Of a DNA stretch of 64,000 nt, positions 1-36,025 are shown in pieces. The position numbers and the translations under genes were made by a program. The DNA lies in the IMG/VR virus record IMGVR_UViG_3300010373_000039, positions 1-64,000 of that record. One strand, 5' to 3'. Numbering within the stretch: position 1 is the first letter of the stretch; each line of letters begins with the position of its first letter. The stretch comes from a virus. The notes beneath the pieces are model-generated. The model searched no databases and was not told the origin of the DNA. It saw nothing but the letters and a program-made list of their open reading frames with translations.

Positions 1-26
1 CCCCCCCCCCACCCCCATCTCAAGAT

Positions 27-62
27 ACCCCCTCCCCACCTTTGAAAAATACCCACAGGGGG
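27..62. terminator. Hairpin near the window start
   Basis: ACCCCCT (27-33) can pair with AGGGGG (57-62). No T-run follows. It lies before the first promoter and could end a transcript entering from outside the window, or be chance in a C-rich contig end. The window opens with ten C residues. Confidence 0.3.
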
Positions 63-9843: not shown

Positions 9844-12687
9844 ATGCCACGCACCTCACGTCCGGCCCTTAGTTGTTGGGATCGGGACATTAACAACGTG
9901 GAGAAACCGTCGCCGTCCGCGTCGGATCGTTCCCCGTTTTGGTCCAAGGAGCAACCGGAATTCGAGTGTGGTGGTCGAATCTACTCGGCGTCCGAGTACG
10001 CCAAATTACCCGAGGAAATTCAAAAACATGGCCGGGTGGTGCGGGGCGGCATGTTTCCCCATCAACGCAAATGGTGGGAATTAAACACCTTTATCAAAGC
10101 GCTGATTGGAGGATTTGGTGCCGGCAAGACGTTGATCGGCGCTAAACGGGTCATCGCGTCGGCATTGGACAATTCCGGGTGTATGGTCGCGGCCGTGTCC
10201 CCGACGTTCCCATTGGCCCGCAAAACCATCATCCCGACTATCAGCAACCTTCTAGCCGGCAAACAAGCGAGATACGGTCGTGGGTTTTGGTGGAAATACA
10301 ACCGCACCTCCCATGAATTTTTCATCCGACATAAGGGACGTGACGGATGGATTCAAATCATGTCGGCCGAAGATCCGGATTCGTTGCGCGGACCCAATAT
10401 CGCATCGGCATGGTTGGATGAACCGTTCCTGATGGAGGAAACGGCATTCCGGCACATGGCGGCACGTATCCGCGCCGGCAATTCCCGTGAATTGCTTCTT
10501 ACGGGATGCGTCACGCGGGACACCCTGGTTTTGCCGAGATCTGGCATGACGCCGATCGGTGATTTGGACCCTGGAACCCTTCCAAAACAATATCGCCGGA
10601 TCGCGACCGATTTGTATGGTTCGCATCGATCGTTCCACCATGCCACGTCGTTTTTCAACAACGGGGTTTCCGAGACCAGGCGCATTACCGTTACCAACAA
10701 CTATCAAATCGAGGCCACACCGGACCATCCGGTTTTGGTCATGGGTGATGATGGTAAACCGCAATGGCGTCCGGTGGGCCAATTGCAAATCGGGGATCGT
10801 GTGGCGATTGGTCGTGGCATGGAGGTTTGGGGTAACGTCGATCCGTGCGAAGGATTTGTACCTCAACAACGGCGAAAAGTTAAAAAACCGTTGCCACAAA
10901 AAATCCAAATGACCAAGGATTTGGCCTATTTCCTTGGTTTGTGGTTGGCCGAGGGGAGCGTAGAACCGGGTCGGTTGACGATTACATGCGGCGATCCCTG
11001 TGTTATCAAGTATTTGTTGACTAAGGGTGTTTTGGGACTTCGGTTCCGTAAACAAAGCCGTGATAAACTTCACGTTCGACTTAGCTCGGTGGAGCTAATC
11101 GATTTGATGAGGCACCTTGGGATGCCATTGGTTACGGCTATAAATAAATACATTCCACAATGGGTTTGGAACGGTCGCCGCGAATGGGCGCTGTCGTTTT
11201 TGGCCGGAATGTGGGACGGTGACGGTTGCGCAATGCGTGATGGAGGGGGAATCAGCTACCGGACCAATTCTCCTCGATTGGCTCGCGACGTTCAATGTCT
11301 TTTATTGAATCTTGGAATAGTGTCGATCCGGCAGCGCACGGTTGAAAAAGAAATACAACCGGATGCGTTGGTGCAAACCCCAACGGTTGGTTATTACGTT
11401 GAATGTCGTGCCATGAACGCGGCCAAATTGGCCAAAATCCTTTCGTTCCGTATTCGGCGTAAAAAACAAAACGCGTCAATGCACATTCGGTCGATGCGTT
11501 GTTCGGATGTGTTGGCCGGATCGTCGGCGCTGATTTTGTCGGCGTGGCGTAAACGGTCTAAATTGACGTGGAGGAATTGGGACGGTAATCTTCAACCCAA
11601 CGTCATTCGGGAAACCGCCGCCGGACGCCCCGGCGTAGCCTATGGTACCGTCCGGGATTTCGTCCGTTATTGGGAAATGAACGAAGGAACGGCTTGCCCG
11701 GAAATTGAAATACTTAAGCAAAATCTTGGCGATAACTACTATTGGGCCAAGGTCCGCAAAATCGAACGGGGATTGGCCGAAACCGTTGATTTTGTCGTGC
11801 CCGAAACCCACTCATTTTGGTCCAATGGGTTTATCAGCCACAATACGCCCGAACAAATCAATTGGGGTCACGATTTATTGATGGGGGAAACGCGGGAAGA
11901 ATTTGAATCGCGTGAGGTTACGATTGGGATGGTTCAAGCATCGTCCCGGCAAAACCCCGCGACCGGCAAACAATACATCCGGCTACTAGAGGGCGCATTC
12001 ACCCATAAAATGGCCGAGGCGTTCATCGACGGTGGATTCGTCAATTTGTCTAAGGGACAGGTATACTATGGGTTCCAATCCATCGGCGATGAATCGAACG
12101 TCCGGGCGATAGACATACCGGACGGTGCGGAATTGGGCGTGGGGATGGATTTCAACGTGAATCCTATGTCGGCCGCCGTGTTTTGGCGGTTGGGCGAACG
12201 GATGCATTTCTTTGATGAGATCGAGTTGCCCAACGCCGATACCGACATGATGTGCGCCGAGTTGTACGACCGCTATGTAAATAAAGAAACCAAGGTCGTG
12301 CCCCCGCAAATCGCGCCGTTGGACGACATTTTTCCGGATGCATCGGGACAATCCCGGCATACCTCCAGCGCACGGGGTAAAACCGATTTCCACATTATCC
12401 GCGAGTATGGGTTTAGCGTCCGCGCCCCCCACGCGAACCCGAAGGTACGTGACCGGCAAAACGCGGTGAATGGCAAGCTTCGTCCGGTTAATGGTGAGAT
12501 TACCCTGACCATCTCGCCCAAATGCAAAAAATTGCAACGTTATCTGTTGACCTACACCCACGAATTGTCCAACCGGCCGGAACAAAAGGCCATGTCCCAT
12601 TTGTTGGACGCGTTTAGCTACCCGATCCATTACCTGTTCCCGTTGGCCCGCGCCCACACCGGGGAGTACCGGTTGACGGGCCTTTAG
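9844..12687 (+). CDS. terL: Terminase large subunit interrupted by an intein
   Basis: The packaging motor ATPase-nuclease. Walker A GGFGAGKT is at residues 89-96 and Walker B WLDE at 190-193. The intein occupies residues 222-667, inside the LLTG|TP coupling motif. The nuclease domain follows with acidic residues D769 (GMDFN), D832 (PDASG) and D922 (HLLDAFSY), the usual RNase H-fold triad. Removing the intein leaves 501 residues, a normal TerL length. All motifs look intact, so activity after splicing is expected. Confidence 0.92.
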   Translation: MPRTSRPALSCWDRDINNVEKPSPSASDRSPFWSKEQPEFECGGRIYSASEYAKLPEEIQKHGRVVRGGMFPHQRKWWELNTFIKALIGGFGAGKTLIGAKRVIASALDNSGCMVAAVSPTFPLARKTIIPTISNLLAGKQARYGRGFWWKYNRTSHEFFIRHKGRDGWIQIMSAEDPDSLRGPNIASAWLDEPFLMEETAFRHMAARIRAGNSRELLLTGCVTRDTLVLPRSGMTPIGDLDPGTLPKQYRRIATDLYGSHRSFHHATSFFNNGVSETRRITVTNNYQIEATPDHPVLVMGDDGKPQWRPVGQLQIGDRVAIGRGMEVWGNVDPCEGFVPQQRRKVKKPLPQKIQMTKDLAYFLGLWLAEGSVEPGRLTITCGDPCVIKYLLTKGVLGLRFRKQSRDKLHVRLSSVELIDLMRHLGMPLVTAINKYIPQWVWNGRREWALSFLAGMWDGDGCAMRDGGGISYRTNSPRLARDVQCLLLNLGIVSIRQRTVEKEIQPDALVQTPTVGYYVECRAMNAAKLAKILSFRIRRKKQNASMHIRSMRCSDVLAGSSALILSAWRKRSKLTWRNWDGNLQPNVIRETAAGRPGVAYGTVRDFVRYWEMNEGTACPEIEILKQNLGDNYYWAKVRKIERGLAETVDFVVPETHSFWSNGFISHNTPEQINWGHDLLMGETREEFESREVTIGMVQASSRQNPATGKQYIRLLEGAFTHKMAEAFIDGGFVNLSKGQVYYGFQSIGDESNVRAIDIPDGAELGVGMDFNVNPMSAAVFWRLGERMHFFDEIELPNADTDMMCAELYDRYVNKETKVVPPQIAPLDDIFPDASGQSRHTSSARGKTDFHIIREYGFSVRAPHANPKVRDRQNAVNGKLRPVNGEITLTISPKCKKLQRYLLTYTHELSNRPEQKAMSHLLDAFSYPIHYLFPLARAHTGEYRLTGL
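10507..11844 (+). mobile_element. Intein with LAGLIDADG-type homing endonuclease in terL
   Basis: The 446-residue insert starts with Cys222 (CVTRDTLV). It has a block B TPDHPV segment and ends FISHN, with Thr668 as the first C-extein residue, as protein splicing requires. The middle carries two LAGLIDADG-like helices (LAYFLGLWLAEG and SFLAGMWDGDG), so both splicing and homing functions appear complete. Boundaries follow from joining LLLTG to TPEQINWG. Confidence 0.92.
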
Positions 12688-12691
12688 ACGG

Positions 12692-12725
12692 TACGTTGCC
12701 GGTTGGACGAACGCTCGGTTATTTT
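12692..12725 (+). promoter_or_regulatory. TACGTTG-type promoter after terL
   Basis: TACGTTG (12692-12698) starts four bases after the terL stop. TATTTT (12720-12725) lies 18 bases after TTGCCG. The gap has no other obvious function. Confidence 0.5.
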
Positions 12726-12736
12726 CAAGCAAAGCT

Positions 12737-13354
12737 ATGGGTGATGTAATCTGTTTCATGTTGAATCCCACTAACCGAATCCGACGCGAATTGCGCCGGT
12801 ATGGCGGTAGCGTGGGTGATTGGACGCAAAAGGTTTGCCCCAAGTGGGGTTACTACCATAACGCATCTACATTTTTGGATGTAGTTGAAGATACCGACAA
12901 AACCAACGATTGGCCCCGCAATGATCCACGTTGGCCTACGACGTGTGATTGTGGCGAATACAACTTTACCGAAAAGGACAATTGGCAACTTTTCACCGAG
13001 CATTTGTATCGTCGCGATACCGGTGAGGAGTACACACTTCGTAAAGCGCCGCCCGGTGCAATGTGGTACGCCGATTGGCTAACCGAGGGTCGTCCGGCCT
13101 CTGGTAATTTGTATCGTGGTCCGGATGGTCGATGCTTGGTTGTGGTGTGTCCGGACGGTCATCAATGGATGGTGGACAGCCGTTGTTCCAATTGCACATT
13201 ACCCGACGACAACATTCATAAATGCTGGGTGCGACACGGGACGCCGCCCAACATCACCGTGGACAAAAATGGCGTTACGTGTGCCGCTGGCGCTGGGTCG
13301 ATCCAAACGCCAACGTGGCATGGATTTCTTAGGAATGGGGTTTTAACCCAATGA
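12737..13354 (+). CDS. Conserved phage protein downstream of terminase, 205 aa
   Basis: Two parts are visible. An N-terminal region has CDCG-type cysteines. A C-terminal region (about residues 100-205) contains GAMWYADWL, GPDGRCLVVVCPDGHQW, SNCT, CWVRHG and AGAGSI, a pattern I associate with a widespread phage family found near terminase and portal genes; its function is not known to me. The stop overlaps a possible upstream start of the next gene. Confidence 0.7.
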   Translation: MGDVICFMLNPTNRIRRELRRYGGSVGDWTQKVCPKWGYYHNASTFLDVVEDTDKTNDWPRNDPRWPTTCDCGEYNFTEKDNWQLFTEHLYRRDTGEEYTLRKAPPGAMWYADWLTEGRPASGNLYRGPDGRCLVVVCPDGHQWMVDSRCSNCTLPDDNIHKCWVRHGTPPNITVDKNGVTCAAGAGSIQTPTWHGFLRNGVLTQ

Positions 13355-25904: not shown

Positions 25905-27074
25905 TTGAAAGGTAAGGGTATCTATATCGCTAACATTTTAACCGCCGTTACCCCCAAACTGCTCGCCCAGGGCCTTCTAGCGCTTCGCCAGGTTGCGATC
26001 ATGCCGCAATTGGTGAACCAGGGCTATTCCCAGCTTGCCGGCGAACGCGGATCGTCGATTGACGTTCCGATTCCCTCCGCAATCACGGCGCAGGCCGTGG
26101 CCCCCGGCAATACGCCGCCCTCGACCGCCGATGTGCAGCCCACGTCGGTGAGTATCGCGCTCAACAACTGGTACGAAGCCCCGTTCTATTTGACCGATCA
26201 GGACATGATGACCGCCATGGAGGGAACCATCCCCATGCAGGCATCGGAAGCGATCAAATCGCTGGCCGTCCAGGTCAACAGCGACATTTTCTCGCTATAC
26301 AAGAACATCTATGGTTTTTCGGGCACCCCCGGCACTACGCCGTTCGCGTCCAACACCACGGATGTCACCACGACCCGTAAGATTTTGAACACCCAGCTCG
26401 CGCCGATTTCCGACCGCCGGTTTATGCTGGACCCCAGCGCTGAGGCCAACGCGCTGTCGCTCGCCGCGTTCCAGGCCTATCTTAACACCGACGACACCGG
26501 TGTTATCAAGGACGGTAACCTGGGCCGCAAACTGGGATTTGATTTCTACATGTCCCAGCTCGTTCCGACCCACACGGCCGGCTCGATCACCACGGGACTG
26601 ACCGCCAAGGCATCGACGGTCCAGGCGGTGGGCACCACGGCTATCGTTTGCACGACCGCCGCCTCTACCGGCGCCTGTGCGCTGGTTATCGGCGACATCA
26701 TCACGTTCGCCGGCGATACCCAAACCTACGTCGTGACGGCGGCGGCAACGCAGGCATCGGCCGCAACCGATGTGACGGTGAACATCTCCCCGGGTAAGAA
26801 GGTTGCCCTGGCCGGTGGTGAGGCCGTTACGCTCAAGGCATCGCACACCGTCAACCTCGCGTTCCATCGTGACGCGTTCGCATTTGCGACCCGTCCGCTG
26901 ACACAGGCGGCTGAGGGATTGGGCAACATCATTCAGAGCGCCGTGGACCCGGTTTCGGGCCTTAGCCTCCGGTTGGAAATCAGCCGCGAACACAAGCGGA
27001 CCCGATTCAGCTACGATATCCTTTACGGTATGCAATGCATCCGTAAGGAATTGGCGGCGCGATTGGCCGGATAA
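25905..27074 (+). CDS. Major capsid protein (P22 coat-like)
   Basis: The stretch ANILTAVTPKLLAQGLLALRQ and the following IDVPIPSAITAQAV and WYEAPFYLTDQD match phage coat proteins of the P22 gp5-like group, which normally begin MANI-like. Here no ATG or GTG is present: the codon before GCT-AAC is ATC, and the nearest start is TTG 25905, adding about eight residues. Residues 245-310 hold an inserted Ig-like region. Leucine and glutamine codons (CTG/CTC, CAG) differ sharply from the neighbours, as expected for very high expression. Confidence 0.82.
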   Translation: MKGKGIYIANILTAVTPKLLAQGLLALRQVAIMPQLVNQGYSQLAGERGSSIDVPIPSAITAQAVAPGNTPPSTADVQPTSVSIALNNWYEAPFYLTDQDMMTAMEGTIPMQASEAIKSLAVQVNSDIFSLYKNIYGFSGTPGTTPFASNTTDVTTTRKILNTQLAPISDRRFMLDPSAEANALSLAAFQAYLNTDDTGVIKDGNLGRKLGFDFYMSQLVPTHTAGSITTGLTAKASTVQAVGTTAIVCTTAASTGACALVIGDIITFAGDTQTYVVTAAATQASAATDVTVNISPGKKVALAGGEAVTLKASHTVNLAFHRDAFAFATRPLTQAAEGLGNIIQSAVDPVSGLSLRLEISREHKRTRFSYDILYGMQCIRKELAARLAG

Positions 27075-27187: not shown

Positions 27188-27934
27188 ATGCCCCCGATTT
27201 TTAGCCAGAAGTCCTCGATCGTCAGTTTGGTGTTGATCGGTGTCGGTATTTATTGCCACATTAAGGGCACGACCCTTTCCAGCGCCAACGAAAACATGAT
27301 TACACAGGCCATTGGATTGATCTTCGACATCTTGGCCGGCAACATTGCGTATTTCGTCAGCCTTCACAATAAAAACAAGAGCGCGATCAACCAACACGCC
27401 GACGTGATTAACCAATCCACGGCGACGGCATCCAACCCCGGTCCGTCCACAACGGCCACCGTTTTGAAGCTTTTGTTTATCGGCGGCATGGCGGCGGCGA
27501 TGACCGGTTGCCTGGGTGGATGCGCCCAATTCAATCAAATGTCCGACCAGGACAAAGTATCACAGGCGGAAACGGTATTCACTACCGCCGTAACGGCCCT
27601 TAGTGCCGCCAAAACGGCCAACCTGATCGATGCTCAGGATTACCACACCATCGTGGGGATCGAAACAACGATAAGCGCCGCGTTTGACACGGTCCACGCG
27701 GACCTGGACGCCGGCGGAAAACTGGACGGCAATACCGCATGGTCGGTGCTTAACACCACTCTGCAGCAATTAGCCGTCTTCCAATGGAGGTTTACCAATG
27801 GACGCGGCAATAATAGCGGCAATCGAGGCCCTGCCAGCCTTCCTTCAAGTAGTCGATCAACTGATTACTCAACTACAAAAGGGTGGGCAGTCATTGACTA
27901 CCGAACAACGCGATACCATCGAACAGCAGCGTAA
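27188..27934 (+). CDS. Membrane/lipoprotein-like protein, possible lysis function
   Basis: Residues 8-27 and 40-60 are hydrophobic, a holin-like hairpin. A third hydrophobic stretch (about 92-106) ends in AAMTGCLGGC, which looks like a lipobox. The helical region after it ends near residue 198. The last 48 residues are low-complexity and overlap the gene at 27798, so they may come from a lost stop or frameshift. AAGGAG precedes the ATG. Two ancestral genes may be fused here. Confidence 0.5.
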   Translation: MPPIFSQKSSIVSLVLIGVGIYCHIKGTTLSSANENMITQAIGLIFDILAGNIAYFVSLHNKNKSAINQHADVINQSTATASNPGPSTTATVLKLLFIGGMAAAMTGCLGGCAQFNQMSDQDKVSQAETVFTTAVTALSAAKTANLIDAQDYHTIVGIETTISAAFDTVHADLDAGGKLDGNTAWSVLNTTLQQLAVFQWRFTNGRGNNSGNRGPASLPSSSRSTDYSTTKGWAVIDYRTTRYHRTAA

Positions 27935-28005: not shown

Positions 28006-28368
28006 ATGCTTTCGTTCATTCCATACGAATTGGATAAAAACCCTTCCGGTGGATACCTTGTACTAACCGCCATGGTGTTGATGTTGGGGGGAAACGGCGT
28101 GATTACCCGACTCCTTCGCTATCGTAGTAAAAATCTGCTTTCCACTAACGAAACGATCCAAAAACTGTTGATACGTATGGGGGCGCTGGAAACCAAGGTA
28201 GATTTACTCAAGGATCAATTGGAAGAGGAACGAAAAATCCACATTGAGGAATTGACCCGGTGGCGTCGGATTTGTAGCAAGCTTCGGTCGCAATTGGAAA
28301 CCGCCCAAAAACGCATAGCCGAGTTGCTAGCCGAGAACGAAAGCCTGCGGGGAATGAAAAAGGACTGA
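28006..28368 (+). CDS. Membrane-anchored coiled-coil protein (spanin-like candidate)
   Basis: A hydrophobic segment near residues 16-38 is followed by a long charged coiled coil (about 45-118). This topology matches inner-membrane spanins, but also any Rz-like or anchoring protein. I prefer ATG 28006 (GGAGG upstream) over GTG 27982. Together with the lipobox-containing gene at 27188 it could form a lysis set; no separate endolysin is visible nearby. Confidence 0.45.
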   Translation: MLSFIPYELDKNPSGGYLVLTAMVLMLGGNGVITRLLRYRSKNLLSTNETIQKLLIRMGALETKVDLLKDQLEEERKIHIEELTRWRRICSKLRSQLETAQKRIAELLAENESLRGMKKD

Positions 28369-28370
28369 CC

Positions 28371-29480
28371 ATGCTGCGATTTATTTGTAACGTATTTTTT
28401 GCGGTCATGTTCGCGTTGACCGCCGACGCCCAAACGACCCAACCGTTTGCCCAGCAACTTGGTTCGCTGGGCAATTCCATTGATGCGATCGTCGCGGCCA
28501 AGAACCAACAAATCACCGCATTGCAATTGCAAAACGCCACGCTGGCCGATCAGGTCGCGGCGTCGTTAAAATTGCAGGCATTGCCGGACGGCACCGATCT
28601 TACGCCGATCCTATCCAATCCGATTTCCGGGCAGTTGGTGGTGTTGAAGGAGGATGGTAGCTATCCGGTCCTTCACCCGACTATCAGCGCCACTAAGGTA
28701 GTTTTGGGGTTCAATTCCACCCTAAGCATGGTGTCGGTCAATCCCGGTGGTACGGGGATCGGTATTCGTGCCCCCAATTGCGTGTTTTCGGGGTTGAATC
28801 TGATCGGTAACGTGACCGCGTTCCATGTGTGGGCGGCGCACGCCCAAATCAATAACTGCCGTTTTGACAAATCGATTGCGGTAGGCATTCAAACCGATGT
28901 TGGTGGTGATAGTACGACCATCGACGGTTGCAATTTTGGGATTACCCAGGCCCAGGGCATTTACGCCACCGCCGACAATCTTACGATCATCAACAGCTTT
29001 TTTGCCGGGTCGGTGGGGGAACACCCCATCCGGGTCGATAAAAACAGTACCACGGGGCATCGACCCAATAACATCTTGATCGCTAATTGCAGCATCACCA
29101 ACCACAATATTTATGGGAAGGAGGCAATTGCTCTTCGAGAATGTGATTTAGTTACATTGCATAATTTGGTGGTTGATGGTTGGGTCCGTCCGGGCAACGT
29201 CATAGGCAACCCTGATTCGACGGTGCATTGCAGCGATTTGATTATCCACGGGTTGACCTTCGCCTCGCTTCGCCCGGGGGGTTCCCTTTTGCAAATTGAG
29301 CACGATGTAAACTCGGTAATCAGCGACATTTCCGGACCAGGAAGCTTAACCGATCCGCTGATTAGTAATCAGGTCCGTTCGGTACTGTCGATCCACAACG
29401 GGTCTTTGATAGGGAATCCTCCACCGGGCAAACAATGGTTTCCGATGATTAGTGGTCCCGGCGCTGCTAACGCGATTTAA
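28371..29480 (+). CDS. Exported beta-helix protein
   Basis: The start codes for a Sec signal peptide (residues 1-20, cleavage after ADA). A short coil (35-65) follows, then a right-handed parallel beta-helix with repeated short turns containing N, G and C (about 95-360), as in pectate-lyase-like folds and tail spikes. The signal peptide argues for secretion from the host rather than ordinary virion assembly. A catalytic site is not visible. Confidence 0.6.
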   Translation: MLRFICNVFFAVMFALTADAQTTQPFAQQLGSLGNSIDAIVAAKNQQITALQLQNATLADQVAASLKLQALPDGTDLTPILSNPISGQLVVLKEDGSYPVLHPTISATKVVLGFNSTLSMVSVNPGGTGIGIRAPNCVFSGLNLIGNVTAFHVWAAHAQINNCRFDKSIAVGIQTDVGGDSTTIDGCNFGITQAQGIYATADNLTIINSFFAGSVGEHPIRVDKNSTTGHRPNNILIANCSITNHNIYGKEAIALRECDLVTLHNLVVDGWVRPGNVIGNPDSTVHCSDLIIHGLTFASLRPGGSLLQIEHDVNSVISDISGPGSLTDPLISNQVRSVLSIHNGSLIGNPPPGKQWFPMISGPGAANAI

Positions 29481-29492
29481 GGTGGTGACGTA

Positions 29493-29921
29493 ATGCCCCG
29501 TAAAACGACCGCAAAACCGTTGACCGAGGAACAAAGGAAATTGGCGTCCAATGTGGAAAAACTGGTTAATTACTTTGTGAGTAAAAACCCACGGCCCCGT
29601 TATCTGACGCCCGACGATTACCGGGCCGAGTTGTACCTGGCGGTGGTTCGTCGGTCATCGCAGTTTGATCCTAAAAAGGGAACGTTTGACACGTGGGCGT
29701 ACCGGGCGATGGAACAACGATTGAAAGGGTTGCACTATGCGGCGTACCAAAAGGCAACATATCGGGTTGGCAAAGAACGACATTTTAGAGAGGTCCGGGT
29801 GTTTTTCGTCGATGCGAAACTTTTCGATGTGTCTAGGTTCCGTCGTATTGATGGTGTCTATTACGGCAGTATTCGCAACACCGCAAGCCGTGGCCTCCGT
29901 AAGCTACAATGTGATGATTGA
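29493..29921 (+). CDS. Sigma-70 region 2-like protein, 142 aa
   Basis: Residues 38-80 (YLTPDDYRAELYLAVVRRSSQFDPKKGTFDTWAYRAM) have the region 2 pattern of sigma factors (acidic helix, FDP.KG, TWAYR), which binds core RNA polymerase and the -10 element. There is no region 4. The last 37 codons overlap the signal peptide of the next gene, so the C-terminus may be truncated. It is the best candidate in the window for a phage transcription factor. Confidence 0.55.
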   Translation: MPRKTTAKPLTEEQRKLASNVEKLVNYFVSKNPRPRYLTPDDYRAELYLAVVRRSSQFDPKKGTFDTWAYRAMEQRLKGLHYAAYQKATYRVGKERHFREVRVFFVDAKLFDVSRFRRIDGVYYGSIRNTASRGLRKLQCDD

Positions 29922-30465
29922 CACCACCAATCTTCCCACCGCCCGGGATTACACGGTTCAATTCTACTTGACCAATTCCGACGCTACGGACAATTGGAGT
30001 CGGATCGTTCAACCCGACAGCTTTTCAATCGATGGTGATTTGTATCGGGACAATACCCACTACTATGCTGATCAACCAACCCTTGATCCGGTGCCAGCGC
30101 CAATCCCAATCAATTTCTACTTAACCCTCAACGGCGCTGCTGGAAGCAATGATGTCTTTTTGATGTCGATCCGGACCCCCGATGGGATTATCGCCGGTCC
30201 GGATGGAAGCGATTGGTTGGCGTGGGCGTCGATGGACACCGATTCGCCGGTTCTTAATTTTGACATGCCGGCCGGGGTGTCAATGACATCGGCCATTGTT
30301 CCCGAAACATCGTCGGCAATTTTGATGTTGGCGGGGATCGGCATCATCCTTTTGCTGCGTTCGCGCCGTCCAAAGGAACATGTCCGATGGATAACCAACC
30401 GTCCTTCAAATTTCATCCGCAAGTACGCGAATAACTATCCGGATTGTCCCCCGCGTCGTCGATAG
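29812..30465 (+). CDS. Secreted PEP-CTERM-type protein
   Basis: A signal peptide (about residues 1-29) leads into SYNVMIDTTNLPTARDYTVQF, the opening strand seen in PEP-CTERM family proteins. The C-terminus has VPETSS (163-168), a hydrophobic helix (169-182) and RSRR (183-186): the three parts of a PEP-CTERM sorting signal, with T in place of the second P. A further 31 residues follow, which is unusual. Exosortase would cut at this signal. ATG 29812 is the best start; 29827 is an alternative. Confidence 0.65.
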   Translation: MRNFSMCLGSVVLMVSITAVFATPQAVASVSYNVMIDTTNLPTARDYTVQFYLTNSDATDNWSRIVQPDSFSIDGDLYRDNTHYYADQPTLDPVPAPIPINFYLTLNGAAGSNDVFLMSIRTPDGIIAGPDGSDWLAWASMDTDSPVLNFDMPAGVSMTSAIVPETSSAILMLAGIGIILLLRSRRPKEHVRWITNRPSNFIRKYANNYPDCPPRRR

Positions 30466-30479
30466 GCAGGGTTTTACCA

Positions 30480-33400
30480 ATGAAGCACACACGATTTCTT
30501 GTTTCGTTTGTTTTGGCCGTTGCATCCATGGCCGGCGGCGCATTTGGTGCCGTAGGCGATGTCACGCAATGCATTATTGACAAAAGCGCATTTGTCGCGT
30601 TTTTGAAGATTAGTGGTGTTTCTCCGGGTGGAACGTATGTCCCGACAAATGCCACCTTTACCGTCACGTCGATGGGGTTCGACAACACCGGTGCCGCGAC
30701 TACCAAAACGCGCACGTTGACCGGTGGCCACCAAATGCTTTGCCCGACCGGCGATGGCTCAATCGCTATGTCGAAGGTGCAGATTGGTCCGGTAACCGGT
30801 GGTATTTTTGTCGATGGTGACACGGTAACACAGGCCGGTGGCGCTACGGCGGTGGTAGACAGCAATTCCCCGTGCAGCCCTCTATTGCTTCGAAATATCA
30901 CCGGAACACCGAACCTAGGCGCATGGACCGACAGTACCACCGGCGCTACGGCTACGCCCACAACCACACCCACCGTCTATACCGGCTCGCCCGTTCGCGA
31001 GGGTGTGGACGGCTTCGATCTATGGATTGCGATTAGTCTTAGTGACCCGGTTTATCAAAAGGACAACACCGGTGGGGGCAACAGTGGCACCGCCCCGACC
31101 GTCACAACCACCGCCGGTCTTTATAATGACGGCACCCATAACTCCAACGCCGTCACGGCCCTGACATGCACTAACGATTCCACCCTCGCCTATCCAAAGG
31201 CCCTTGCGCATTGGGCGGTGGTTGGTGGTCAGAGGTTTAATGCCCCCATTGATATTGAGGTAATCGGCGTTCAAAAGTTTGCCGGGAATCAAGAGCCCCT
31301 GGCCTGCGTCATTATCTCGGGTGCTGATGCACATTCCCATACGACTACCGCCACGCTTACATCAATGGTCCTTAGTGCGGCGGATAATGTCCCGGTTTAT
31401 AAAACCGTGGCCGATCCGACCAGCTTCACGCAGCTTGATCGCGTTAATTACAACTTCAAAGCATATCCCAATATTGGCGATTCCAGTTGCGTGGTCGATA
31501 CGTCCGGGGGCGCGGCATGGCCACAGTTTAATGCGACGGGGAACCCGGCCTTAGGTCCAATCACCTTTACCGACAATCAGGCCAATGCACAGATTTATCC
31601 GGTAGCGGTGGTCGATTCGACCAGCAACATTACCGGGACGCTTGGTGGAACGGGAACCTTCGCCGATCACGAGCACCTTACCCAACCAAACACTGGCGCT
31701 ACGGCTTGGGTTATTGGTGCGCAAAGTAGTAGTCCGATCAAGGTTTCAAATATTATCGGAAGTCCTGATGGCACCGTTTGGAACGGGACCAGCGCAAGCA
31801 TCACCCCGACCGGACCTCCGACCGCGAACGCCGCCGGTGGGACGGTCTATAAGGACGCAAGCCTTGTTCCTGGAAGTCCCGGAACCTATGCCAGTTTGTC
31901 GGTCGCAGCGGCAAATTTAGCAGCTTACAACAACACAAATAATGGACATAACGATCCGGGTAATGGCACAATCTGGATGACCGAGCAGGCCTACCACACC
32001 GGGGACACTACCTCGGCGTTTGTTTGCTCGGATTGGTTGACGATCACCCGCAAACCCGGCCTTGCGACCGGCAAGGCGGTTATCATCGGTTACCTTAGCT
32101 TAGACCAGCTAGGACCGACACTCGATCGTTACTATGACCTCGATTTTGCACCGGTAGATGACTATTGTGTTTCGGACAATTGGGGCGTCTGGTTCGATCA
32201 CGATCGGTTTGATGGTACAGCGCACGCTAATGCCCAACCGTCATTTCAGGCGGCGCATCTTGTAACTACCAATTGCACCTTCTCTAATGGATTTCGTCTT
32301 TGTGCCTATGTTTTCAGCACCGGCAATTGGCCCTACATCACCCGAAATAATACCTCGGATCGTGGCGCGGTGATGGCCGGTCTTGTTTGCGCCGGCAATA
32401 CGTTGGTGCAGGGATCGGGGGAAACCGGCTCAACCGCTGCTATAGTGCAGGATACCGCGATCTATATCAACAACACATACCGGATTTACGGTGTGTTTGT
32501 CCAAACCGCGCCCACATTGCCCACGGGAATAGCGTTCATCAACAACCTGGTGGAGAAGGTTGGCACCGATACCCAAACCGCCACGGCGATGTGGGCCGAT
32601 GGTGTGACCGTCGATGCCGAACAGGTAATTTGGTGGTACAACACGGTTGTCGGAGAGCGAAGTAATACCGGGTACAATGATAAGACGCCCGCCAGTTTGC
32701 GAACCAATTGGAGCTACATTGGCAATAGTTGTGATTGGATTCCGACCAAGCACGACATATTCAACCAGGGAACGGGTGGTGAGGGCCCTAATCCAACACG
32801 AATCAAGGGGTGGCCGGTAAACTATGGCGTAGGTTTTCATCACAACCACTCGGTTCAGGCGGATGGCGGTACTTTCGCACCGATCTATTTTGGTGTGGAT
32901 GGAACCCGCCAATCGTCGGCCGGATACACCCTAAACGCGAGCGAATCGGGGACAAATGCGGGGGGCGGCAACTACACCCCCGCCGTGGGATCGACCCTGA
33001 TTGGCCGTATTCCATTCGCAGAGCAACCGATTGCGTTTGACCGTGCCGGGAACACCCGTAGCACCTCTTCGACGGCCGTAGGGGCGTTTGCGGCCCAAAG
33101 TGAATTGATTGCCACCGCGTTTGAAATATCCGGTGGCGCAACCGCGACCCCGGGCGTTTCCTATCTAGGCTCGGTCACCCCCAACGGCCCGCTTCCATCC
33201 GGTGAAACGGTTGTCGTAACCGACGATTTGGGTAACACAATTGCCACGCTTACCTTTGCCAATGGATCATCGACCGGTCAAAACTTTAATTGGACCCCCA
33301 CCAACGCACAATCGGGTTCGCGGACCCTGACCGCAACGGCAACCCCGGCATTGGGAAGCCCGCCGACGATGAGCGTTGGGGTTGCCGCCGTTGCACCGAC

Positions 33401-33968
33401 ACTAAGTGCCGGCGGATCGGTGGGAACCATTTCCCTTTCATGGGGCGCAATAACCGGCGCGGCGACCTATAACGTCTACCGTGGAACGACCCCGGGTGGG
33501 GAATCGGGAACGCCGGTGGCCACCGGGATTACCGGGACCACCTACAACGATACCGGGTTGTCGCCTAGCGCTACCTTCTATTACACGGTTAAATCGGTGA
33601 ACACGGGTGGAACCTCATCGTCATCGAATGAGGTAATCGCCACGACCGTGGCAAGGAAATTATCCGCGATTCCCGGCGCGGTGAAAACCAACGGAACAAA
33701 TATTGTCGTTACCTTAGTGGACAATTACGCAACCACGTTCACGACCGGAACGCCCGGATCACCCACGGTCACCGTGACGGGCGCTACCAAGGTAGGTCAA
33801 CAGGTAACGGCAAACAACCAAATCAAGGTTACAATCAATACGGGTGGGGTGGGAACCGTCACGTTCGATCCGGGAACCGGATTTACCGCAACCGTTTTGA
33901 TTAGTAACAGCGGCCTTCGCGATCGAAGGACGGACCCGTTTGGAAACATCAGGCATCGACCATTTTAG
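30480..33968 (+). CDS. Large exported adhesin-like protein, 1162 aa
   Basis: A Sec signal peptide (residues 1-23, ending GAFGA) is followed by Thr/Gly-rich beta domains. A region near 470-830 reads like a beta-helix with aromatic turns. An Ig-like domain (about 880-965) and a fibronectin type III-like domain (about 968-1055: ISLSWGAITGAATYNVYRG) follow. It could be a receptor-binding, surface-display or secreted protein. The signal peptide makes a conventional tail fibre less likely. Confidence 0.6.
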   Translation: MKHTRFLVSFVLAVASMAGGAFGAVGDVTQCIIDKSAFVAFLKISGVSPGGTYVPTNATFTVTSMGFDNTGAATTKTRTLTGGHQMLCPTGDGSIAMSKVQIGPVTGGIFVDGDTVTQAGGATAVVDSNSPCSPLLLRNITGTPNLGAWTDSTTGATATPTTTPTVYTGSPVREGVDGFDLWIAISLSDPVYQKDNTGGGNSGTAPTVTTTAGLYNDGTHNSNAVTALTCTNDSTLAYPKALAHWAVVGGQRFNAPIDIEVIGVQKFAGNQEPLACVIISGADAHSHTTTATLTSMVLSAADNVPVYKTVADPTSFTQLDRVNYNFKAYPNIGDSSCVVDTSGGAAWPQFNATGNPALGPITFTDNQANAQIYPVAVVDSTSNITGTLGGTGTFADHEHLTQPNTGATAWVIGAQSSSPIKVSNIIGSPDGTVWNGTSASITPTGPPTANAAGGTVYKDASLVPGSPGTYASLSVAAANLAAYNNTNNGHNDPGNGTIWMTEQAYHTGDTTSAFVCSDWLTITRKPGLATGKAVIIGYLSLDQLGPTLDRYYDLDFAPVDDYCVSDNWGVWFDHDRFDGTAHANAQPSFQAAHLVTTNCTFSNGFRLCAYVFSTGNWPYITRNNTSDRGAVMAGLVCAGNTLVQGSGETGSTAAIVQDTAIYINNTYRIYGVFVQTAPTLPTGIAFINNLVEKVGTDTQTATAMWADGVTVDAEQVIWWYNTVVGERSNTGYNDKTPASLRTNWSYIGNSCDWIPTKHDIFNQGTGGEGPNPTRIKGWPVNYGVGFHHNHSVQADGGTFAPIYFGVDGTRQSSAGYTLNASESGTNAGGGNYTPAVGSTLIGRIPFAEQPIAFDRAGNTRSTSSTAVGAFAAQSELIATAFEISGGATATPGVSYLGSVTPNGPLPSGETVVVTDDLGNTIATLTFANGSSTGQNFNWTPTNAQSGSRTLTATATPALGSPPTMSVGVAAVAPTLSAGGSVGTISLSWGAITGAATYNVYRGTTPGGESGTPVATGITGTTYNDTGLSPSATFYYTVKSVNTGGTSSSSNEVIATTVARKLSAIPGAVKTNGTNIVVTLVDNYATTFTTGTPGSPTVTVTGATKVGQQVTANNQIKVTINTGGVGTVTFDPGTGFTATVLISNSGLRDRRTDPFGNIRHRPF

Positions 33969-35491: not shown

Positions 35492-36025
35492 ATGAGCGTG
35501 ACGCTGATTGCCACCGATGGTTCGCCGCAGGCCAACGCATATTGCGACGTGGCCTACGCCGATAATTTCCTGACCACCCAACGCCCGTTTGTGGGTACGG
35601 AGTGGACGGGCCTGACCACGGATCAAAAGGCGACATTGCTCATTTGGGCCACCACCTATTTGGATGACATGGTGGATTGGAACGGGTACAAGGCAACCCG
35701 TGACCAAGCATTGCGATGGCCGCGTTCGGGTGTCTACGATCCGGATGGGTTTTACGTGGACAAATCCACCGTGCCCGATCGCATCCGCCAATGGACGGCG
35801 GAAACCGCGTGGGAGTATTCTAAGGTAAACCGCCAGGCCGAACCGACGGCGCTGGGACAGGGGATTACCGATGTCACGGTGGGACCGATCCGGGTCAAAA
35901 TTGATCCGAACATGCAACTACCCTATTTCCCGCCCTATCTAGCCACCAAGATTTCCCGCTACGGAATCCTCATCGCCGAGGGCGGTCCGGGCGCGTTCAC
36001 CATGGCCCGATTGCTTCGCGTGTAA
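35492..36025 (+). CDS. Head-tail connector (DnaT-like domain family)
   Basis: The pattern ANAYCDVAYADNFL, then ATTYLDDMVDWNGYKATRDQALRWPRSGV and a helical C-terminus matches the phage family annotated as DnaT-like, which occupies the head-tail adaptor position in many genomes. Place between the charged protein and head-closure genes agrees. Confidence 0.65.
   Translation: MSVTLIATDGSPQANAYCDVAYADNFLTTQRPFVGTEWTGLTTDQKATLLIWATTYLDDMVDWNGYKATRDQALRWPRSGVYDPDGFYVDKSTVPDRIRQWTAETAWEYSKVNRQAEPTALGQGITDVTVGPIRVKIDPNMQLPYFPPYLATKISRYGILIAEGGPGAFTMARLLRV

Follow-up and report, generated by a model that had tools for sequence, protein, structure and literature searches.

Judged from their predicted proteins, genes for PEP-CTERM-tagged products are recurrent on phages and are not a lone oddity of one genome. 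The gene located at positions 29812-30465 of the window (the whole stretch of 64,000 nucleotides that was analysed, i.e. bases 1-64000 of the 97,455-base IMG/VR record IMGVR_UViG_3300010373_000039) has an even chance of being an accessory, moron-type phage gene that would encode an exported surface protein carrying a host-type PEP-CTERM tag. An earlier note on this DNA had attributed the gene to a phage, and this is borne out by the presence on the same contig of two phage hallmark genes, the first of which is the left edge of a variable slot:

25905-27074, + strand: P22-type major coat protein (PF11651, E 4.5e-24)
9844-12687, + strand: large terminase (phrog_2, E 9.9e-25)

The coat protein is about 52% identical to capsids of Vibrio siphophages. 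Genes were called on the full 97 kb contig with a simple script. The phage also encodes an FAD-dependent thymidylate synthase. Exosortase and tRNA genes were looked for on the contig and none was found; no bacterial flank was noticed on the 97,455-base record. A planctomycete-like host, suggested by TTQP-type sequences, is only a guess. C-rich homopolymer-like runs occur at both ends of the record (window positions 1-60 and the end of L003) and are possibly assembly ends.

The ORF is present with the PEP-CTERM-type anatomy that had been described, and its VPET, hydrophobic and RSRR units can be read in the following arrangement:

29812-30465, + strand: ORF for a PEP-CTERM-type protein of 217 aa, read from the DNA
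29812-29895, + strand: predicted signal peptide, residues 1-28, with a cleavage-like site between AVA and S
29896-30297, + strand: body, residues 29-162, strand-rich, without Lys or Cys and with no recognisable relative
30298-30369, + strand: PEP-CTERM-like tail VPETSSAILMLAGIGIILLLRSRR, matched by TIGR02595
30370-30462, + strand: basic extension of 31 residues after RSRR, with codon-position GC unlike that of the phage's genes

The signal peptide was called from hydropathy and from the cleavage-like site: the N-terminus reads MRNFSMCLGSVVLMVSITAVFATPQAVA, followed after this site by SVSYN. Only two hydropathy peaks are found in the protein, at residues 6 and 166. In the tail, the hydrophobic stretch AILMLAGIGIILLL (hydropathy peak 2.32) is followed by RSRR, and the body between signal peptide and tail has 134 residues. 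AlphaFold run without an alignment gave a mean pLDDT of 45, which is not usable as a fold; this low-confidence model has one helix at residues 2-21 and another at 164-184, separated by a strand-rich body. Lysine and arginine make up 3.0% of the body against a median of 12.4% for the 103 other called proteins that reach 100 aa, all of which have higher values. Furthermore, the body has zero Lys and zero Cys, and S, T and N together account for 25% of its residues. Since bodies rich in these three residues and low in basic residues and Cys have been published for PEP-CTERM proteins (PMC1569441), this composition was counted in favour of a PEP-CTERM-type exported protein. That the ORF is a chance open frame and not a gene would agree with its lack of relatives and with the borderline score of its tail; it is very improbable for a frame of more than 200 codons that begins with an export signal, has a tail match near its end, is strongly non-random in composition and shows, in its body, codon-position GC like that of the phage's genes.

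The earlier note had proposed a complete tripartite sorting signal, to be checked with TIGR02595-type models. The motif-helix-basic unit is there, but its score is borderline and the motif has T in place of the second P. The curated cut-off of TIGR02595 is 16 bits. In a six-frame search of the 97 kb record, the model matched positions 30298-30369 above it, with 19.2 bits (E 3.6e-4), whereas hmmscan gave 15.1 bits for the whole protein, just under the cut-off, and 15.4 bits for the protein cut after RSRR. The alignment spans all 24 model positions. Among 14 control genomes, above-cut-off matches were found in two at a loose threshold (E<=1) and in none at stricter thresholds. The match is thus best described as borderline on its scores. 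The likeness might also be convergent, the product being a periplasmic protein anchored in the inner membrane (acting in lysis, or in exclusion at DNA entry) that never meets exosortase. The borderline score, the PET motif, the long basic tail of cytoplasmic type and the membrane- or lysis-type look of two neighbours, 27188-27934 and 28006-28368, speak for such an anchor. We nevertheless hold it to be unlikely, as the match covers the 24 model positions in full, scores above the curated cut-off when six frames are searched and is of a kind rarely seen in the controls.

The copy in the window departs from known PEP-CTERM proteins in several respects. Its motif is Pro-Glu-Thr, P-E being kept, whereas Pro-Glu-Pro is near-invariant in these proteins (PMC1569441); membership is therefore weakened, though not excluded. 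The 31 residues after RSRR, already pointed out as unusual, are indeed so: the tail is not at the extreme C-terminus, and 55 residues separate motif and stop, versus 24-33 in the cellular tails that we read. This distance is 23-39 residues in phage tails with a VPEPA motif, among the matches listed. According to Haft et al. 2006 (PMC1569441), 87% of PEP-CTERM proteins have fewer than 10 residues beyond the tail, and examples with dramatically longer tails were suspected to be non-functional. At the extension, stops lie close by in other frames. The start of the gene is also atypical, as it lies inside another ORF:

29493-29921, + strand: sigma-70 region 2-like ORF (PF04542, E 2.5e-5, 24.4 bits; also TIGR02937)

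This sigma-like ORF, which is short and lacks region 4, shares 110 bases with the region that codes for the signal peptide; a scan with it as query gave no matches. The ATG at 29812 has no good Shine-Dalgarno, and an in-frame upstream ATG at 29737 has a better one and would give a longer product. In view of the PET motif, the 31-residue extension and the start inside the sigma-like ORF, decay has to be taken seriously as an alternative: the phage would have acquired the gene from a host, and it would now be functionless passive cargo whose PEP-CTERM motif has worn, whose stop has been lost and whose start is buried. Absence of the phage codon-position GC pattern from the extension, the nearby stops in the other frames and lack of conservation of the gene in related phages point the same way. 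However, the frame is intact from the signal peptide through RSRR, the composition of the body is still of the extracellular type and genes of this kind are maintained by selection in other phages. On balance, decay is somewhat improbable, though less so than a membrane anchor. The protein would be a borderline PEP-CTERM member that lacks two defining features, the PEP motif and a terminal tail; the copy may be a weak example that could be poorly processed, and it may be decaying.

Searches for relatives of the 217-aa protein found none in the viral contigs, phage records and genome contigs searched, and only a chance match in plasmids. Two marginal matches were obtained in 289 genomes of one phylum and no match in 396 and 251 genomes of two others. 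NF038129, a PEP-CTERM protein family, matched the whole protein with 29.9 bits (E 4.5e-7), below its 65-bit score. Membership in this family was rejected: the body alone gives no match, so that the signal depends on the tail, the body's score is not above that of shuffled sequences and hhalign of body against family gives a probability of 0.7. The SYNVMIDTTNLP opening, which the earlier note had listed as a feature, is no more than the beginning of the body, where a weak likeness to NF038129 proteins (YNVMIDT vs YxVTVDT) is seen besides the tail; without the tail it is not significant, and there is no significant likeness along the body. NF038129 loci were probed with a consensus-like sequence of our own making that scores 213.6 bits with the model. 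Furthermore, the window body joins no family of the phage PEP-CTERM bodies compared.

The gene lies between the coat protein gene and a conserved right edge, with two other ORFs beside it:

28371-29480, + strand: ORF with a signal-peptide-like start and a weak beta-helix match
30480-33968, + strand: ORF of 1162 aa with a signal-peptide-like start
35492-36025, + strand: DnaT_2-like gene (PF20557, E 3.7e-25), right edge of the variable slot

At 8.4 kb, the interval between the coat protein and DnaT_2-like genes is longer here than in phages whose coat proteins are related, where it measures about 0.1 to 5.4 kb. Since its size varies and since TIGR02595 at E<=1 has no match in 13 related phage records, several of which are fragments, this interval is viewed as a variable accessory slot. 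The two membrane-type ORFs directly after the coat protein gene (27188-27934 and 28006-28368) are possibly a lysis group, as one has a lipobox-like stretch (MTGC) and the other weakly matches an Rz-like spanin. Three unrelated phages have long tail- or virion-type ORFs with Sec-signal-like starts in the neighbourhood of their PEP-CTERM genes (28371-29480 and 30480-33968 in the window; L126:6660-8393 and 12589-13227; L086:4002-10098); two such ORFs of L126 match tail families.

A search of viral sequences for PEP-CTERM C-termini, which had been suggested as a check, was productive. A narrow alignment scan of viral contigs found seven loci; an alignment built from many tails varied too much to be used for scanning. 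The DNA pattern VPEPST plus hydrophobics found 52 stretches, 22 of them with signal peptide and tail, and the pattern VPEPA[ST] at least 56 loci with both. Together, these patterns, which are restrictive, give at least about 78 loci in IMG/VR contigs that encode a signal peptide, as called by a crude hydropathy rule, and a PEP-CTERM tail. Among the matches listed, tests for the phrog_2 large terminase were positive in 11 of 33 records and, in a second round, in 14 of 38. Moreover, G963 has a phrog_979 terminase and its relative G985 a homologous one (93% identical). Counting phrog_2 records, G963 and G985, at least 27 PEP-CTERM contigs, some of them near-duplicates, carry a large terminase. 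Direct phage neighbours of the PEP-CTERM gene include ribonucleotide reductase (L117), a phage exonuclease and Sak4 (L159) and a phage major head protein (L192). Two PEP-CTERM matches lie close together in five of 20 records (G956, G958, G966, G967 and G971); the two of G969, which are near-identical, lie at a distance from each other.

As in the window, these phage proteins (for instance G963 gene 16 and those of L084, L117, L131, L159 and L192) have a signal peptide, a body and a tail, are encoded among phage genes and mostly occur without a phage exosortase. They differ from the window protein by a canonical PEP, by mostly short ends (among the matches listed) and by unrelated bodies. Their bodies form several families, with many singletons. 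For two of the phage-family proteins, a search of 50,697 phage records yielded no relative. When a bare canonical tail was used as the query of a protein BLAST, neither phages nor plasmids gave a match, so this negative is uninformative. Host DNA or prophage flanks may account for some of the contigs; L083 has, by eye, integrase-like and relaxase-like ORFs. On another virus record, an exosortase-like ORF (G974:54485-55035; PF09721, 124 bits, partial) adjoins a PEP-CTERM gene, the pair being either host DNA or genes of a virus that owns both. The PEP-CTERM proteins of L131 (3804-4571, - strand) and of L100/L138 are about 31% identical and have cysteine-peptidase-like starts; a gene of this kind lies near an integrase-like ORF in G984. 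Those of L104 (228 kb) and L117 (157 kb) have similar openings (M-N-D/Y-D-G-C), with a short BLAST match.

Selection on such a gene could be assessed in G963 and G985, related phages in which most virion proteins are about 85-98% identical. Their syntenic PEP-CTERM genes (G963 gene 16, L145:12087-12623; G985 gene 32, L149) encode proteins that are 55% identical and keep the tail. A simple counting method gave a dN/dS of 0.38 for this gene. Among 25 genes compared, one is higher, a candidate host-recognition gene (0.57), and the remaining ones range from 0.03 to 0.24; in its divergence, the PEP-CTERM gene resembles genes of the tail or host-recognition type. The dS of the PEP-CTERM gene is 0.96 versus 0.3-0.8 for most others; recombinational exchange may therefore contribute. 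By this estimate, the ratio shows purifying selection and maintenance of the gene in that one lineage, which is not that of the window phage.

The window protein resembles the substrates of the PEP-CTERM/exosortase (EpsH) system in its signal peptide, helix-free body and motif-helix-basic cluster (TIGR02595; PMC1569441); it differs from them in being phage-encoded, in its PET motif and in the 31 residues past the basic cluster. Unlike cellular systems, the window phage would depend on its host for exosortase. Were the protein processed and displayed, host Sec machinery would export it through its signal peptide, and its C-terminal helix and basic residues would retain it in the inner membrane. 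Host exosortase would then recognise the P-E-T/P motif, remove the tail and hand over the strand-rich body, either to the surface of the cell or to exopolysaccharide. The displayed body would alter the envelope for the benefit of the phage, by masking receptors or by excluding competitors, as Ltp does. Among the surface lipoproteins by which phages achieve superinfection exclusion, the prototype is Ltp from phage TP-J34 (PMC3952083). The window gene would likewise be a phage accessory gene with an exported product, directed to the host surface as predicted from sequence, but a sorting tag replaces the lipobox and there is no sequence relation: no lipobox-type cysteine is found at the cleavage site and the mature body has no Cys. 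Alteration of the host envelope, i.e. exclusion or receptor masking, would be the most likely role, given the analogy with phage surface lipoproteins and the fast divergence in the G963/G985 pair.

Exosortase substrates have been regarded as proteins of bacteria that serve in exopolysaccharide, flocs and biofilm. The earlier note knew of no established phage use of the system. This holds for the open-licence literature, where no title or abstract describing phage-encoded PEP-CTERM proteins was found, which does not prove that no such paper exists, but it contrasts with the many IMG/VR phage contigs that encode such proteins. The most promising paper on PEP-CTERM and phages (PMC12642866) concerns host genes, and in Nostoc, exosortase is required for motility and biofilm (PMC12188702). 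The occurrence of PEP-CTERM-tagged proteins in many environmental phages suggests that they borrow the sorting machinery of their hosts. It is a balanced proposition, as probable as its contrary, that phages of exosortase-bearing hosts form a recurrent, undescribed class that supplies exosortase substrates of its own and, through the PEP-CTERM pathway of the host, re-dresses the surface of the infected cell with them, these genes being selected and diverging at about the rate of a host-recognition gene. If phages regularly encode exosortase substrates, this pathway would also be a phage route to change the host surface. It could then be tested which phage proteins decorate the envelopes of environmental bacteria that have exosortase, whether mutants in exosortase differ in phage sensitivity and whether some PEP-CTERM genes that are tallied as bacterial are in fact carried by prophages.
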